Below, piece after piece: positions 25,099 to 63,521 of a stretch of DNA of 64,000 nt. The notes beneath the pieces were generated by a model. It did no database searches, was not told the DNA's origin, and saw only the letters and a list, made by a program, of their open reading frames with translations. The first letter of the stretch is position 1. The number at the start of each line of letters is the position of its first letter. A program made the translations under genes and the position numbers. Source of the stretch: Polyangium mundeleinium (lineage in GTDB: Bacteria; Myxococcota_A; Polyangia; Polyangiales; Polyangiaceae); assembly GCF_028369105.1 (NCBI RefSeq), contig NZ_JAQNDO010000001.1, positions 7,968,501-8,032,500 of the forward strand, read 5' to 3'.

Positions 25099-25125
25099 GC
25101 GGGGGCTCGCTTCGCAGCGGCAGCG

Positions 25126-25227
25126 CCGGGGTTTCACCCCGGACCCGACGAGGGGTTGTCCACCCCTCGACCCGGACCAGGGCCAGCCCTGGACCTTTGA
25201 TGCATCAACCGCGATGCGGTTGATGCA
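25126..25227 (+). repeat. structured intergenic repeat, solo copy 1
   Basis: About 102 bp that folds into four successive hairpins: CCGGGG/CCCCGG; CGAGGGGT-TGTCC-ACCCCTCG; CCAGGGC/GCCCTGG within GACCCGGACCAG; and TGCATCAACCGC-GAT-GCGGTTGATGCA (12 bp). It lies between the convergent ends of the anchored-protein gene and tRNA-Val. It is about 90 percent identical by eye to the copy at 46526-46627 and related to four copies in 51215-52176. Confidence 0.9.
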
Positions 25228-46417: not shown

Positions 46418-46502
46418 GGCGCAGTTCGGGGGAAAGAGGGCCGCGCGACCTAGCACGTCCAGGGCAGAGGCACCACCCGAGCCGGCGATCGAGGGGCTTT
46501 TC

Positions 46503-46650
46503 AGAGGGTGTTCCACAGCGTAGCGCCGGGGTTTCACCCCGGACCCGACGAGGGGCTGTCCGCCCCTCGACCCGGACCAGGGCCAGCCCTGGACCTTTGG
46601 TGCATCGACCGCGACGCGGTCGATGCGCAGGCGCATGGTGGAACACCCTC
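46503..46650 (+). repeat. structured intergenic repeat, copy 2, bounded by 14-bp inverted repeats
   Basis: The four-hairpin core at 46526-46627 matches copy 1 (25126-25227). Its stems differ by compensatory changes: CGAGGGGC/GCCCCTCG instead of T-A closing, and GCATCGACCGC-GAC-GCGGTCGATGC instead of the A/T version. The core is flanked by AGAGGGTGTTCCAC (46503-46516) and GTGGAACACCCTCT (46637-46650), a perfect 14-bp inverted repeat not seen around copy 1. It lies upstream of ychF, at the end of the Gly-rich protein gene. Confidence 0.9.
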
Positions 46651-47175
46651 TCAGGCCGCGTCGTCGCGGCGCAGCCGGTGGCTCCAGAAGCCGAAGACGG
46701 GCTTGCGCGCGATGTACCCCTGGTGGGCGAGGCAGATCCGCTCGACGTCGTCGGCCTGGGTCGTGTTCTCGACCTCGACCGTGAGGAGCACCTTGCCGGC
46801 CTTGACCTCCCGCTCGACGTCCTGGAGCACCGGATCGGGCTCGGCCGCGCCGGCGAGCCCGCCGCCGAGCGCCCCGGCCGCGCCGCCGCCGAGCATGCCG
46901 AACAGCGCCGCGGTGAGCGGCCCCGCCGCGATGAAGCCGAGCGGCCCGAGCACGAGCCCGCTGAGGAGGCCGCCCGCCGCCGAGCCGACGAGCGCGCCGG
47001 TGGTGACGCCTTCCCGCGCGCCCGTCTCGGCGAGCGGCACGTCGAGTCGGTTCACCTTGTCGTGGTGCAAAAGCACGGTGCACGCCTCGGAGAGCCCGGG
47101 CAATGCACGCACCACATGCATGCACGTCTCGGCGTCTTTTTCGTTATCGAACAAGGCGAAAAGCACGTGTCGCAT
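46651..47175 (-). CDS. Gly-rich membrane-inserting stress-type protein, unknown
   Basis: A 174-residue protein. N-terminal MRHVLFALFDNEKDAETCMH resembles the ferredoxin-like start of YflT/GSP17M-type and DUF1269-like proteins. The centre (about 70-115) is a glycine-zipper-like hydrophobic stretch (GALVGSAAGGLLSGLVLGPL; GPLTAALFGMLGGGAAGALG). The C-terminal part returns to an alpha-beta pattern (KVLLTVEVENTTQADDVERI). The centre may insert in the membrane. TGAGGAGG lies 5 nt before ATG 47175, one of the best ribosome sites in the window. Its stop codon touches the terminal inverted repeat of the structured element. Confidence 0.75.
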   Translation of the reverse strand: MRHVLFALFDNEKDAETCMHVVRALPGLSEACTVLLHHDKVNRLDVPLAETGAREGVTTGALVGSAAGGLLSGLVLGPLGFIAAGPLTAALFGMLGGGAAGALGGGLAGAAEPDPVLQDVEREVKAGKVLLTVEVENTTQADDVERICLAHQGYIARKPVFGFWSHRLRRDDAA

Positions 47176-50292: not shown

Positions 50293-51176
50293 TGGCGAAG
50301 CGGGGGCCCTCTTCAGTGCGCAGGCGCGAAAGACTCTTGCTCGGGCTCGGGTTCTTGCTCGGGCTCGCCGCAATGGCATTTTTCCTCCTCCGGCGGCCCC
50401 CGGCCCCCGCCCCCGCACCCATCCCACCCGTCCCGCCGCCACCCGCCCCGGCCCCCGTCGCAGCGCCGCCGCCGCTTTCCTACCCCACCCCCTTCTCCGT
50501 GCCAACCGCCGCACTCCCGCCCCGCGAGGCACTCCGGCCAGGCACGCTGCGTCTTCTCGTCATCGGCGACTCGGTGTCAAACTTCCTCGGCATGGCGCTC
50601 CGCTATCGGCAAGAAGAAGCGGAGACATTCGTCGCCCTTCGCGGCGTCGGCGATTGTTCCATCTTCGAAGCCAAGACGCGCATGGAGAAGGGCAAACCCG
50701 TGCGAGGCACGAGCTGCTCGGAGCACTGGGCGCAGGACGTCGCCGAGCTCCACCCCGACCTGACACTCATCGTCATGGGCGGCGCCTTCTTCAACGAAAA
50801 GGCCTGCGACCCAGCCTGGCAAGCCTCCTACGAGAAGCGCATCTTCAATCTCGCCGACGGAATGGGCACAAACGCAGGCCGCATCGTGCTGACGCGTGTC
50901 CCTTATCCCATCAAGGACTGGCGTCACGGAAACGTCCCAGCCCGCGTCGATTGCTTCAACGAGATGCTCGAACGGGCCGCCCAGAAGCGCAGATGGCCCA
51001 TGCTCGATTTGATGGGTCACGTCTGCCCAACGCCCGCATGCCGGGTCGACAGCAACGGCCACCCCATCCGCCCCGATGGTCTGCATTTCGATGGCGTAGG
51101 CGCCGAGGAGACAGCCCGATGGGTCCTCCGCGAGCTCAAGCGTTTCGCGCGCGAGGAGCACGACGCAGGGCTTTGA
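50292..51176 (+). CDS. membrane-anchored SGNH/GDSL-type hydrolase
   Basis: A 294-residue protein with a short Arg-rich head, one N-terminal transmembrane helix (about 15-32), a long Pro/Ala linker (about 35-75) and an SGNH domain. Catalytic Ser94 lies in VIGDSVSNFLG, Asp262/His265 in PDGLHFDG, and the Asn/Gly block is MGGAFFNEK. A Cys pair (GDCS, ACDPAW) may form a disulfide, fitting a periplasmic site. These enzymes hydrolyse or transfer acyl esters, often on polysaccharides. ATG 50292 is chosen; GTG 50289 is adjacent. It ends the three-gene operon. Confidence 0.85.
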   Translation: MAKRGPSSVRRRERLLLGLGFLLGLAAMAFFLLRRPPAPAPAPIPPVPPPPAPAPVAAPPPLSYPTPFSVPTAALPPREALRPGTLRLLVIGDSVSNFLGMALRYRQEEAETFVALRGVGDCSIFEAKTRMEKGKPVRGTSCSEHWAQDVAELHPDLTLIVMGGAFFNEKACDPAWQASYEKRIFNLADGMGTNAGRIVLTRVPYPIKDWRHGNVPARVDCFNEMLERAAQKRRWPMLDLMGHVCPTPACRVDSNGHPIRPDGLHFDGVGAEETARWVLRELKRFAREEHDAGL

Positions 51177-51214
51177 GGTGGTTCCGAGGGTGGTTCTCAC
51201 AGCAAGGCGCGGAG

Positions 51215-51543
51215 CTGGGGCTTTGCCCCAGGCCCCACCGGGGCTATCCGCCCCTGGACCCGGACCAGCGCAAGCGCTGGACTCGGGGTCGATGAACTGC
51301 GCTCCGCGCAGTTCATCGAACAGCCGCTGGCAAGACCGATGACGACCTTGCCAACAGAGACCGCGGCGCTGCGGGTTCACCTGGCAACGCACACGTCGCC
51401 AGGTTGAGACCCCCCTCCATGGTCTTGCCACCGGCCCGTTGGAAGAACTGCGCACCGCGCAGTTCTTCCATCCCCGGTCCAGGCCGTGCCTGGTCCGGGT
51501 CGAGGGGCGGACAGCCCCCGCGGGGTCCGGGGCAGCGCCCCGG
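51215..51543 (+). repeat. composite inverted repeat element L1 (329 bp)
   Basis: Left arm 51215-51319 (plus orientation) and right arm 51440-51543 (reverse complement) are copies of the same four-hairpin repeat. The end hairpin of the left arm is TCGATGAACTGCGC-TCC-GCGCAGTTCATCGA; that of the right arm is TGGAAGAACTGCGC-ACC-GCGCAGTTCTTCCA, a perfect 14-bp stem in each but with different sequence. About 120 bp of less-conserved sequence separates the arms. Confidence 0.9.
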
Positions 51544-51848
51544 CGCAACGGCCTGCGGCGCGCCAGAATGGGGGGCGCAGAGCGCGCTCGGGGACCTGCC
51601 GCGCCGTGGAATGGGAGACGGCCTCGCGGAGGGAGACTTGCAGCGCCGCAGGTCGACGTCTCTGCAGCAAGGTGTTCGAGCTGCGGCGCCTTCCATCGGG
51701 TGCGGGTGAGCGCGGAGGGCCGCCCGCGGCGCCGCAGGGCGGAGGACGCGCCCGAGGAGCGGCGGCTCACGACGCCCAAGGTCGCCGGGCGCGCGGACAG
51801 GGGCCGCGTTGCGGCGCCGCAGGAGGCAATCTGGTTGGGGGCGTCTCG

Positions 51849-52176
51849 CTGGGGCGTTGCCCCAGGCCCCACCCGGGGCTGTCCGCCCCGGGACCCGGAC
51901 CAGCGCAAGCGCTGGACGCGGGGTCGATGAACTGCGCTCCGCGCAGTTCATCGAACAGCCAGGGTCAAGACCCCCAACGACCCTGCCAGCCAACACGGCA
52001 GCGCTGCAGATTCAACCGGCAGCGCGCCCGTCGCCAACTTGAGACGCCCCCATGGTCTTGCCACGGGCCCGTTGGAAGAACTGCGCACCGCGCAGTTCTT
52101 CCACCTTCGGTCCAGGCCGTGCCTGGTCCGGGTCGAGGGGCGGACAGCCCCCGCGGGGTCCGGGGCAGCGCCCCGG
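51849..52176 (+). repeat. composite inverted repeat element L2 (328 bp)
   Basis: A second copy of L1 in the same orientation: left arm 51849-51954, right arm 52073-52176. Arms are nearly identical to those of L1 while the centre (51955-52072) is only about three-quarters identical by eye. CTGGGGC-GTT-GCCCCAG and CCCGGGGC-TGTCC-GCCCCGGG are its first two hairpins. Confidence 0.9.
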
Positions 52177-52199
52177 CGGCTACGCTGTGGACCACGACC

Positions 52200-53165
52200 T
52201 CACGGCGCGCTGGTTGCGCAGCGGATGCCGAGGTAGCCGCAGCGATACGTTGTCTTGAAGACGGCCGTCTTTCCTGCTTTGACCTCGTCGCCGCTGTCGC
52301 GCCAGCTCCCGCCGCGGCCGAAGCGGGCTGAGCTTACGACGTCGTTGCCTGTCGTCGTCCATTGGAAGATGTTGCCTGCGAGATCGAGCACCCCTTGTGG
52401 GTTTGCGCCGGCTGGGAAGCTTCCGATCGGACAGGGTTCGTTTCGCTTCGTCTTTCCGGACCAGCAGAGCTGCTCCGCGGGCGGCTCGTTCCCCCAGGGG
52501 TACGTCCATCCTTCTGGACCGCCGCGTGCTGCCCATTCCCATTCTTCGCCGCTGGGAAGACGCTTGTTTTGCGCTTTGCAGTAGTCGGTCGCTTGCACGA
52601 AATCGACGCAGACCATCGGCAGGTTGCCTTTCCCTTCGGCGCCGTAGGTCGAGGGATCGCAGACCTTGGCCGCTCCGTCGTTGCACTTCTTCGATTGCAC
52701 GCACGACGCATATTGGTCTGCCGTCGTCAGGTTCACGTCGAGGCAATAGTCCTTCACGGTCACCTGCGCCTTGATTGCGGCGAGCTTGAAGGAGCCTCCC
52801 TTGATGCGGACCATCCCGGTCGGGCATCCGCCGGTGTCCGGCACGCTCGCTGGCGCCGGCGTGGCCGCGACGGTTGGCTGCGGCGCTGCGCTCGCGACGG
52901 GGGCCGCCGTCGTCTCCGGTGCGGCTGCGGTCGCGGCCGCGCTCGGCGCGGGCTCGGCTGTGGCTGCGGGCGTCGCGGCGGGCGCGGCGGGTTTGGTCTC
53001 GCCTCCTGCCACGTTCGTGGGCCCCGCGGGGGGCGGCTCACTCGCGCCGCCGCATGCGCTCACGGAGGCCAAGAGACACGCGGTCACCCACGCGAACGGG
53101 GCCATCGCCACCGCCCCTGCGTGCGCCCCGTGCAATGCGTTCGTCCATCGTCTCACCGACATCAT
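52200..53165 (-). CDS. FGE-sulfatase (SUMF1-like) domain lipoprotein
   Basis: A 321-residue exported protein. A long n-region precedes the hydrophobic core and lipobox VSAC (Cys38), then an Ala/Pro/Thr-rich linker to about residue 110. The C-terminal 200 residues match the formylglycine-generating-enzyme/sulfatase-modifying domain: GMVRIKGGSF, RLPSGEEWEWAARGG, YPWGNEPP, DLAGNIFQWTTT, GRGGSWRD and YRCGYLGIRC. Many members are not true FGEs; the paired catalytic cysteines were not verified here. ATG 53165 has GGAGG 5 nt upstream. It is convergent with the repeat region and lies downstream of the cytochrome gene pair. Confidence 0.85.
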   Translation of the reverse strand: MMSVRRWTNALHGAHAGAVAMAPFAWVTACLLASVSACGGASEPPPAGPTNVAGGETKPAAPAATPAATAEPAPSAAATAAAPETTAAPVASAAPQPTVAATPAPASVPDTGGCPTGMVRIKGGSFKLAAIKAQVTVKDYCLDVNLTTADQYASCVQSKKCNDGAAKVCDPSTYGAEGKGNLPMVCVDFVQATDYCKAQNKRLPSGEEWEWAARGGPEGWTYPWGNEPPAEQLCWSGKTKRNEPCPIGSFPAGANPQGVLDLAGNIFQWTTTGNDVVSSARFGRGGSWRDSGDEVKAGKTAVFKTTYRCGYLGIRCATSAP

Positions 53166-61079: not shown

Positions 61080-63521
61080 ATGAACACCGACGATTTCGTC
61101 TTCGCGTGGGAGGAAGAAGGCCAGACGCCCGAGCCCCTGCGCGTCGCGCGCTTCGAGGGCGAAGAGGGCCTGAGCCGCCTCTTCCGCTACGAGCTGCTCC
61201 TCCTCGCGAAGGACACCGACCTCGACCCCGAAGCCCTGATCGGCAAGCGCGCGAGCCTCTGGATCACGACGCTCTCGGCGCCCGCGTGGAAGCTCGTGCA
61301 CGGCCTCATCACCGAGGCCGAGGACGCGACCACCCTCCCCGAGGGCTCGGTCTACCGCGTGGTCGTCGAGCCGCCGCTCGCGCGCGCGCGGTACCGCACG
61401 CGGAGCCGCGTCTTCCTCGACAAGACGTTGCGCCAGATCCTCGAGAGCGTGCTCCGCAACGACGCGGGCATGACGCTCACCTCGGGCGCCTCGCTCGATC
61501 CCCCGGTCGGCCCGCCCTCGTTCACGGCCGCGGCCGAACGCTTCACGTGGCGCACCAAGACGAGCCGCCTCGACGATCCGAAGGCGCGCCCGTACGTCGT
61601 TCAGTACAACGAGAGCGACCTCGATTTCGTGGCGCGGCTGCTCGAAGAGGAAGGCATCAGCTACCACTTCGAGCACACGGACGACGCGAGCCTGCTCGTC
61701 CTCTCGGACAAGGATTTCGGCCGCTCCCGCGTCCCGGGGGACGACGTGTTTGGTCCGGGCAAGCCCGGCCGCGGCATCGGCACCTTCCGCCTCGGCGCGC
61801 GGATGCACGAGACCTCGGTCCACCTCGGCGCGTACAACTGGGAGAAACCCGCGCTCGACGTCGACGCGAAGGCCACGGGCGAGCCGGGGGATCTGTCCGT
61901 GTACACCTTCCACGGCGGCTCCTTCGACAGCGCCGAGCTCGGACAACCCCTCGCGGAGGCGCGGCTCGACGAGCTCCACACCGAGGCCTCGTTCGCCGTC
62001 GGCGAGGGCGCCACGCGTGTGCTCTCGGCCGGATCAATCTTCACGCTGGAGCACCCCAAGGCCCGGTACGAGGGCGAGTACCTCGTCACGCGCCTCCACG
62101 CCGTCGGCCATCAGCAAGGCGTGCTCTCCGTCGACGCGGGCGGCGGCGCCGCCGAGCCGTTCCACATGGAGATCGAGTGCGCCTGCCGGGGCCGCGGGAG
62201 CGACGTCCAGGAGAGCCGCTACCGCCCCGCGCGAAGGACACGCAAGCCGCGGATCCTCGGCGCGCAGACCGCGTTCGTGACGGCCGAGCCGAGCGCGCGT
62301 GGCGCCGAGGTGAACCTCGGCGGATCGAGCTCGATCGGGTGCGTGCGCCTCCGCTTTCATTGGGACACCGAAGAACAACGGATCGCCAAGGAGCCTTCGA
62401 GCAAGTGGGTCCGCGTGAGCGAACCCTTCGCGCGCGGCGGCCAGGGTGGCATCTGGCACCCGCGTGTCGGGAGCGAGGTCATCGTCGAGTTCGAGGACGG
62501 TGATCCCGACAGGCCCTTCGTCACGGGCCGCGTCTACAACGGCAAGAACCGCCCCGCGCAGACGACGCCGACGCACAGCACGATGTGGTCGCTCTCCACG
62601 CCCGGCGGCGGCGTGCGCAACGAGATCTCCTTCGAGGACACGGCCGGCAGCGAGCGCATCTACATGAACGCCGGCAAGGACATGCTCGCGAACGTGGGCA
62701 ACCAGCGCGTCGAGAACGTCGGCGCGGACGCGCTCATGACCGTCGGGGCGAACAACACCGAGGAGATCGGCGGCAACCAGACGATCCAGATCGGCGCGAA
62801 CGACACGCTCTCCGTCGGCGCGAACCAGACCGAGGACATCGGGGCGAACCAAATCCGCATCATCGGCGGCAGCCGGCTCATGATCATCGGCGGCAACGAG
62901 GCGCGGCAGACCGGCGCGAGCCACGCGAACATCGTCGGCGGCGCCCTCAAGGAGAACGTCGCCGGCGACGTCGGCGAGACGTACGGCGCGACGCGGACCA
63001 CGGGCCTCGCGGCCGACTGGACCGAGAGCTACGGCGCGACACGTGATCAGACCGTCGGTGCGCTCACCCTCCAGGACTACGGCGGCAACCAGACGACGGA
63101 CATCGCCGGCGCGCGCACGATCCACGCGGGCGCCGTGCTCGGCGCGCTCGTCGGCGGCAACTTCGACACGGAGATCGGCGGCTCGGAGACCGTGGACGTC
63201 GGCGCGGCGACCATCCACGTCGCGGCGGGCCCGATTACGCACCAGGCGTCGAGCCTCGACATCAACATGTTCCTCAAGCTGCACCTCGTCGGGGTGAAGC
63301 TGAACATGTTCGTGTTCAAAGCAGCGGCGACGGGCAAATCATCGAGCTACGGCGCGCTCACGGCCTCCGCGAAGGGGACGGCCATCTCGTTCACGGGCCT
63401 GAACCTCCGCACGACGGGCCTCAAGTCCACGGCCGCGGGCGCGAAGCTCGACGAGGACGGCGTGAAGCTCGTGGCCATCGGCGTCCTCATCCACCCCTCG
63501 GGCGTGCATACGTTCACGTGA
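61080..63521 (+). CDS. vgrG: type VI secretion spike protein VgrG (third of three)
   Basis: An 813-residue paralogue: gp27-like domain (VARFEGEEGLSRLFRYELLL; QYNESDLDFVARLLEEEGIS), OB-fold (about 390-480: GAQTAFVTAEPSARGAEVNL; RVGSEVIVEFEDGDPDRPFV), repeats (about 537-706: GANNTEEIGGNQTIQIGAND) and a distinct tail (VFKAAATGKSSSYGALTASA; VLIHPSGVHTFT). It is 28 bp from the second vgrG and 7 bp before the DUF2169 gene. Divergence concentrated in the tail suggests that each spike carries a different cargo. Confidence 0.94.
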   Translation: MNTDDFVFAWEEEGQTPEPLRVARFEGEEGLSRLFRYELLLLAKDTDLDPEALIGKRASLWITTLSAPAWKLVHGLITEAEDATTLPEGSVYRVVVEPPLARARYRTRSRVFLDKTLRQILESVLRNDAGMTLTSGASLDPPVGPPSFTAAAERFTWRTKTSRLDDPKARPYVVQYNESDLDFVARLLEEEGISYHFEHTDDASLLVLSDKDFGRSRVPGDDVFGPGKPGRGIGTFRLGARMHETSVHLGAYNWEKPALDVDAKATGEPGDLSVYTFHGGSFDSAELGQPLAEARLDELHTEASFAVGEGATRVLSAGSIFTLEHPKARYEGEYLVTRLHAVGHQQGVLSVDAGGGAAEPFHMEIECACRGRGSDVQESRYRPARRTRKPRILGAQTAFVTAEPSARGAEVNLGGSSSIGCVRLRFHWDTEEQRIAKEPSSKWVRVSEPFARGGQGGIWHPRVGSEVIVEFEDGDPDRPFVTGRVYNGKNRPAQTTPTHSTMWSLSTPGGGVRNEISFEDTAGSERIYMNAGKDMLANVGNQRVENVGADALMTVGANNTEEIGGNQTIQIGANDTLSVGANQTEDIGANQIRIIGGSRLMIIGGNEARQTGASHANIVGGALKENVAGDVGETYGATRTTGLAADWTESYGATRDQTVGALTLQDYGGNQTTDIAGARTIHAGAVLGALVGGNFDTEIGGSETVDVGAATIHVAAGPITHQASSLDINMFLKLHLVGVKLNMFVFKAAATGKSSSYGALTASAKGTAISFTGLNLRTTGLKSTAAGAKLDEDGVKLVAIGVLIHPSGVHTFT

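Follow-up and report, generated by a model that had tools for sequence, protein, structure and literature searches.

Palindromic hairpin-string repeats near gene ends in the genus Polyangium

Hairpin strings in the window and their paired form

The window analysed here is a 64,000-nt stretch of the genome of Polyangium mundeleinium (G000 below; G001 to G005 denote five congeners). It contains six copies of a repeat unit that is a string of four DNA hairpins joined by conserved linkers and that occurs alone or as a convergent pair (AB). An earlier note, made from the letters of the window, had claimed these six copies, and all are present, with covariance model scores of 95.9 to 124.6 bits; every one of the four hairpins, the GACCCGGACCAG core, the TGTCC/TATCC loop and the stem variants that it described is seen in the sequence. 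The note omitted the strand: two copies (51440 and 52073) lie on the minus one, and the four clustered copies (51208-52183) form two convergent pairs of ~340 bp each.

25119-25227, plus strand: C-type copy, four hairpins, terminal stem TGCATCAACCGC (covariance model)
46519-46627, plus strand: C-type hairpin string (sequence and covariance model)
51204-51556, both strands: AB1, two convergent halves with a conserved interior (repeats as a unit in genomes of the genus; long-hairpin fold)
51208-51319, plus strand: A half of AB1 (covariance model)
51215-51231, plus strand: hairpin 1 of the A half of AB1 (sequence; pairs in both alignments)
51240-51254, plus strand: hairpin 2 of the A half of AB1, inner stem GGGGC/GCCCC, loop TATCC (sequence)
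51257-51268, plus strand: conserved core GACCCGGACCAG of the A half of AB1, overlapping the start of hairpin 3 (sequence, pattern count)
51265-51280, plus strand: hairpin 3 of the A half of AB1, CCAGCGC/GCGCTGG (sequence)
51289-51319, plus strand: hairpin 4 of the A half of AB1, terminal stem TCGATGAACTGCGC (sequence)
51440-51550, minus strand: B half of AB1, terminal stem TGGAAGAACTGCGC (covariance model)
51557-51834, no strand: spacer between AB1 and AB2 (recurs beside other AB copies of the genome)
51840-52183, both strands: AB2, ~635 bp from AB1 (sequence comparison, covariance model)
51842-51954, plus strand: A half of AB2 (covariance model)
52073-52183, minus strand: B half of AB2 (covariance model)

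The C-type copy at 25119-25227 is flanked by a plus-strand gene and by a tRNA gene on the minus strand. A scan of the window with the covariance model gave no copy beyond the six. Positions 62941-63061, matched by the loose core, are a chance match and were not detected by the model. At the gathering score, Rfam returned two tRNAs and nothing else in the window, and over 51150-52250 it gave two matches, both far below that score.

AB1 and AB2 are 81% alike over 199 nt and 96% alike over 132 nt. Our folding analysis showed that AB1 forms one long hairpin (z scores of -13.8 as RNA and -11.4 as DNA), and none of 100 shuffled sequences was as stable. The spacer between AB1 and AB2 recurs elsewhere in the genome, for example at G000:C1:5967418-5968441, 6248035-6248711 and 6692217-6692860; by eye, it contains several GCGGCGCCGCAGG-like palindromes. 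In the genome stretches fetched, we counted 59 convergent pairs; the number of single groups, 82, is somewhat too high because loose core matching doubles some copies (4056722/4056750; 46568/46574), which also makes the rows of the site comparison and of the C-type flanks slightly high. The spacing between cores was 232-233 nt in 37 of the 59 pairs and 201-202 nt in 5, and the ~310-bp pair type (spacing 202) was the only one among those listed for G001.

Outside hairpin 1, the conserved AB ends read approximately GGnGGCGccGCGC. A target duplication was sought in 183 pairs with k of 3 to 9, and no consistent offset was found. The best candidate (identical 4-mers in 8 of 183 pairs where 1.3 were expected; offsets from hairpin 1, 69 and 59) was the best of ~34,000 offset combinations and was taken as chance. 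We also rejected CTGAGCATGGGTCTC as the terminus of all AB copies, since, even with up to three mismatches, it adjoins too few (14 of 189 A ends, 14 of 189 B ends).

Copy number, taxonomic range, placement and site occupancy

The exact GACCCGGACCAG core occurs at 156 places (66 + 90) in the 13.25-Mb genome, compared with 4 (3 + 1) for the reversed pattern, so the six copies in the window are not the only ones, and the many copies that the earlier note named as support are there. The A half of AB1 had at least 40 full-length matches in the genome at 93-100% identity, and the covariance model gave at least 150 matches at 103 bits or more. Applied to 100 stretches (635,399 bases), the same model gave 247 matches at E <= 0.001, the weak tail of which includes antisense reads of palindromes.

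We searched 59 genomes for the core. The six Polyangium genomes contained 156, 36, 224 (G002), 167, 153 (G004) and 398 cores, with 4, 2, 3, 5, 2 and 4 reversed-pattern controls in the same order, and the 53 genomes outside the genus had 0-13 cores each, about their own control level. A 22-base core pattern run against one genome per species (84,980 species) hit at least 120 stretches, and among the matches listed 80 of 80 were from Polyangium. The exact 22-base pattern had no match in viral contigs, and AB1, compared in distant mode with plasmid and phage collections, had none there. Among the genomes searched, the repeat family is restricted to Polyangium. The note had said that no such family was known in this group, and a limited search of the open-licence literature likewise found no paper on a Polyangium repeat.

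The elements lie mostly just 3' of gene ends. With genes called by a home-made score (G+C by codon position) at loci chosen for holding elements, 139 element clusters were distributed over convergent gaps (64), tandem gaps (58), divergent gaps (7), gene overlaps (8, including at least one chance match, that at 62941-63061 of the window) and edges (2), compared with 13 convergent, 121 tandem and 62 divergent among 196 element-free gaps of the same loci. Convergent gaps were thus enriched (Fisher p 3.6e-19) and divergent gaps depleted (p 2.3e-9), and the median distance from clusters in convergent gaps to the neighbouring genes was 26 and 22 nt. The GACCCGGACCAGG half occurs at 72 chromosomal places, listed in full, all between 1.85 and 9.28 Mb. 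They number 0, 6, 17, 19 and 30 by fifths from origin to antipode (KS p 1e-9) if the origin is assumed at dnaA (11.65 Mb), which the GC skew of the patchy DNA did not settle; these places avoid the fifth nearest dnaA and rise towards the antipode.

The presence/absence differences that the note had suggested looking for were found between species: orthologous sites may be empty, hold one or two copies, or hold another type or orientation. The site at 51177-52217 is empty in G002 and G004, occupied by one AB in G003, and occupied by another AB-like element in G005. The site at 46505-46646 is empty in G003, G004 and G001, whereas in G005 it holds a C-type copy of opposite orientation; in G002, its flanks are on two contigs, each beside element-like sequence. 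Conversely, an AB of G005 (L115:3261) is missing from all four orthologs, in the genome of the window, G004, G002 and G001. Across six own sites, 10 of 19 syntenic comparisons were occupied and 9 lacked a core, some with other sequence instead. Many further sites are shared, but these loci (L131-L250) were picked via the core and so give no fair sample of occupancy.

Stem pairing, hairpin exchange and the ends of the C type

The covariation of the stems, on which the earlier note had relied, held up in that two-sided changes exceed those in shuffled alignments, but part of it is due to the exchange of whole hairpins between copies. In 14 diverse copies, 96.5% of cells pair across the four hairpins, compared with 88.8% after shuffling, and sliding the partners by one column lowers pairing to 40-48%. 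Changes on both sides were seen in 10 of 35 pairs and 39 cells (shuffled cells, 11.9; 0 of 500 as high), and in 150 genomic copies (145 distinct) in 15 of 34 pairs and 336 cells (shuffled, 105.6; 0 of 500 as high); the covariance model was used to fit alignment A4 to the structure. The number of pair types was not in excess, shuffles being at least as high in 406 of 500 cases for the 14 rows and in 103 of 500 for the 150 copies, because many copies have the same few hairpin haplotypes. Hairpin 2 is the weak spot (87.5% and 90.0% of cells paired in the 14 rows and the 150 copies, respectively), and hairpins 1, 3 and 4 are fully Watson-Crick in 124 of the 145 distinct copies. One-sided changes in these three hairpins, on the strand as written, comprised 2 G-U and 19 A-C cells, a count that decides nothing on RNA selection because 12 of the 19 fall in one pair and A-C is G-U on the opposite strand.

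Copies trade whole hairpins as modules, and new combinations are formed. Among 463 half elements of the genus, those with hairpin 1 of type TTTCA carry terminal hairpin A in 44 cases, B in 7, F in 5 and C in 28, with 15 unclassed; for hairpin 3 of type GGCCAGCC, the terminal hairpin is A in 2, B in 16, C in 14 and unclassed in 15. Since the modules recombine, fewer independent events lie behind the covariation than the cell counts suggest. The stems may be kept by selection or by correction of DNA palindromes.

Some copies (L025, L032, L062 and L109; e.g. G000:C1:4720883, 5090726, 6670229 and 7147443) have a GGGGCGTAGCTCGGC-type first hairpin. Three truncated copies (G000:C1:5449375, 6314017 and 8042300) share the junction GGCC|CTGAGCAYTGG inside hairpin 3, and a motif resembling this junction was found outside some AB ends.

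The C-type copy at 46519-46627 is enclosed in a longer element with the following parts.

46501-46503, no strand: left TCA of the 3-bp target duplication (sequence; empty site in G003)
46504-46650, plus strand: 147-bp MITE-like element around the C-type copy (15-bp pair of terminal inverted repeats, TIRs; identical flanking triplets)
46504-46518, plus strand: left TIR GAGGGTGTTCCACAG (pattern search, TIR-pair analysis)
46636-46650, minus strand: right TIR, GAGGGTGTTCCACCA on the minus strand (TIR-pair analysis)
46651-46653, no strand: right TCA copy, which serves the minus-strand gene on that side as its stop codon (read from the sequence)

The empty site in G003 reads TTTTCAGGCC, and the genome of the window has TTT-TCA-element-TCA-GGCC; the element therefore shows the marks of a MITE, namely TIRs, a target duplication and an empty site in congeners. 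All DNA fetched contained 17 distinct TIR pairs (GAGGGTGTTCCACAG ends, up to three mismatches). Identical triplets flank 10 of the 17, compared with 0-1 of 17 at twelve other offsets; they are TGA (4), TCA (4), TAG (1) and GCG (1). A core lies inside four pairs, one of which (L115, TGC/TCA) is spurious and out of register, leaving three family members: the triplets match in the window copy (TCA) and L069 (TAG) and differ in L284 (TGA/TGG). In most C-type flanks, recognisable ends are missing or decayed.

The same ends are found on a separate element. Allowing one mismatch, GGGTGTTCCACAG occurs at 40 places in the genome (control, 12), and at nine loci inverted pairs of it lie exactly 104 bp apart, marking a palindromic, highly conserved 121-bp element with GAGGGTGTTCCACAG ends (e.g. 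L275:1371-1491, L276:1172-1292 and L282:1236-1356). Of ten distinct full-length copies, seven are flanked on either side by TGA or TCA and three by differing triplets. The longer right ends of the C type at L205, L247, L235 and L115 resemble the 121-bp end CGCGACGCCTGTGGAACACC, and the C type can therefore be read as a hybrid in which MITE ends enclose a REP-like string of hairpins. In L276, a GGGGCGTAGCTCGGC-type hairpin also adjoins a 121-bp element and possibly belongs to another repeat family.

Routes of spread and comparison with known repeats

The usual explanation for REP-like repeats is a RAYT enzyme. The Y1/RAYT partner that the earlier note proposed found no support: PF01797 has no match in the genome of the window, G002 and G004, that is, in three of the six Polyangium genomes. 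G003 has one match, G001 one and a broken one, and G005 a partial one, and the covariance model detected no element around these four Y1 matches (13,101 bases). The single Y1 genes at G003:C165:65272-65628 (L251) and G001:C42:2448-2804 (L252) are 152-aa frames, IS200-like in size.

TIRs together with a short target duplication are the trace of double-stranded transposition, and 3-bp TNA duplications occur in IS5-family subgroups. The note's idea of movement or maintenance through a single-stranded or RNA form is not borne out here, as the C type, the sole subtype with mapped ends, shows TIRs and a 3-bp duplication, which argues that at least this type moved as double-stranded DNA and not by RAYT. 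We infer that it was moved in trans by a DDE-type transposase encoded elsewhere, the enzyme being a candidate. No inverted GGGTGTTCCACAG pair at a gene-fitting distance was found in the genome (up to one mismatch), and a scan of local DNA gave no convincing transposase with these ends. Two loci with unusually spaced element halves were rejected as an autonomous version. L120 (G000:C1:7262886-7263574) is an AB with an interior enlarged by a short, degenerate GTGGACCTGGCCGGGGAGCGC-type repeat, and no transposase was recognised in it; 7870166-7871442 has a reading frame between two B halves, again with no transposase recognised, and by eye this frame resembles a HAD hydrolase.

We consider it probable that the copies belong to one family of mosaic interspersed repeats that is palindromic, non-autonomous and specific to the genus. 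Its C type would be carried by the DDE-type enzyme above; copies landing in promoters or genes would be lost and those directly after stop codons would survive, and recombination or gene conversion between copies would shuffle the hairpins. The surviving copies may act as putative two-sided mRNA 3'-end structures, as their position and fold suggest. For the AB copies, whose occupancy differs between species, no particular route of spread is proposed.

The structured interior of AB, its form as an inverted pair, its lack of a target duplication and the Y1 genes in G003 and G001 are what would be expected of true REPINs, in which AB moved as single-stranded DNA by a RAYT that has since been lost or was active in earlier ancestors. 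We regard this as unlikely, given that the genomes without a PF01797 match hold 156, 224 and 153 cores, that the surroundings of the Y1 matches are empty of elements, and that the C type bears TIRs and a duplication. Empty orthologous sites, or sites with other types and orientations, likewise argue against a fixed functional structure, a bidirectional terminator or 3'-end stabiliser under RNA selection with little or no mobility, as does the limitation to one genus and, more weakly, the fact that G-U does not exceed A-C in one-sided changes (2 vs 19). Such a structure would account for covarying stems, convergent placement, low free energy and the occupancy of 10 of 19 comparisons, yet we think it quite unlikely.

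Local tandem duplication of one hairpin region without any dispersed family would fit the similarity of AB1 and AB2 at ~635 bp and the single AB of G003 at this site. Copies are, however, dispersed over 1.85-10.0 Mb of the chromosome (among the matches listed) and over six genomes, which refutes it for the family and makes it scarcely credible as an explanation of the whole; for AB1 and AB2 alone, tandem duplication is possible. More tentatively, the interspersed family that we favour might be made of hairpin cassettes, exchanged among hundreds of copies, with near-perfect stems kept by palindrome correction at the DNA level; such REP-like strings would have been caught between the termini of an unrelated DDE MITE whose insertion sites are TGA/TCA, in many cases a stop codon. 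If so, two classes of mobile repeats treated as separate would be united in one hybrid, which would also be a natural REP-like family without RAYT.

A large, elaborate REP-like family thus exists in a genome without a detectable Y1 gene, and one of its subtypes bears a quite different transposition footprint; together these make the spread of RAYT-less palindromic repeats a testable question. In this myxobacterium, mobile hairpins fill the DNA at gene ends, and in convergent gaps they could define where mRNAs end.

The form that the note had called REP/REPIN-like or MITE-like is borne out by many palindromic, paired, intergenic copies whose occupancy differs between species. The family has the high-copy palindromic intergenic units and inverted pairs of REPINs (59 convergent pairs), but it is not filed as a REPIN because the genome of the window has no RAYT match. 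It stands in kind between REPINs or BIMEs and MITEs. PMC3116915 and PMC3733652 describe REPINs and REP dimers (GTAG and CGTC families) in similar terms: the units are palindromic and intergenic, number in the hundreds and often come as inverted dimers around conserved spacers, and the former already reports compensatory changes in them. According to PMC3733652, REP families occupy mostly convergent or unidirectional gaps, in convergent gaps often under 20 bp from 3' ends, a placement in convergent gaps that the Polyangium elements share; the CGTC families described there have no dedicated transposase, just as the Polyangium family has no Y1 gene in the genome of the window. Compared with the REP of these papers, one palindrome of 20-40 bp, the Polyangium half unit is ~105 nt with four hairpins, and one subtype has TIRs and a 3-bp duplication. 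Mosaic palindromic motifs in alternating orientations recall BIMEs as outlined in PMC2817692, whereas the Polyangium modules are hairpins of one string with a genus-specific sequence. The RUP, Correia/NEMIS and ERIC MITEs, in the account of PMC2229807, are under 200 bp, with TIRs, a target duplication, strong structure and no gene, a description that fits the 147-bp element of the window as well as the 121-bp one. The Polyangium elements differ from them in being GC-rich and in a 3-bp TGA/TCA duplication instead of the terminal TA given there for most, and the C-type interior differs from MITEs in being a REP-like hairpin string that is also found in elements without these ends.
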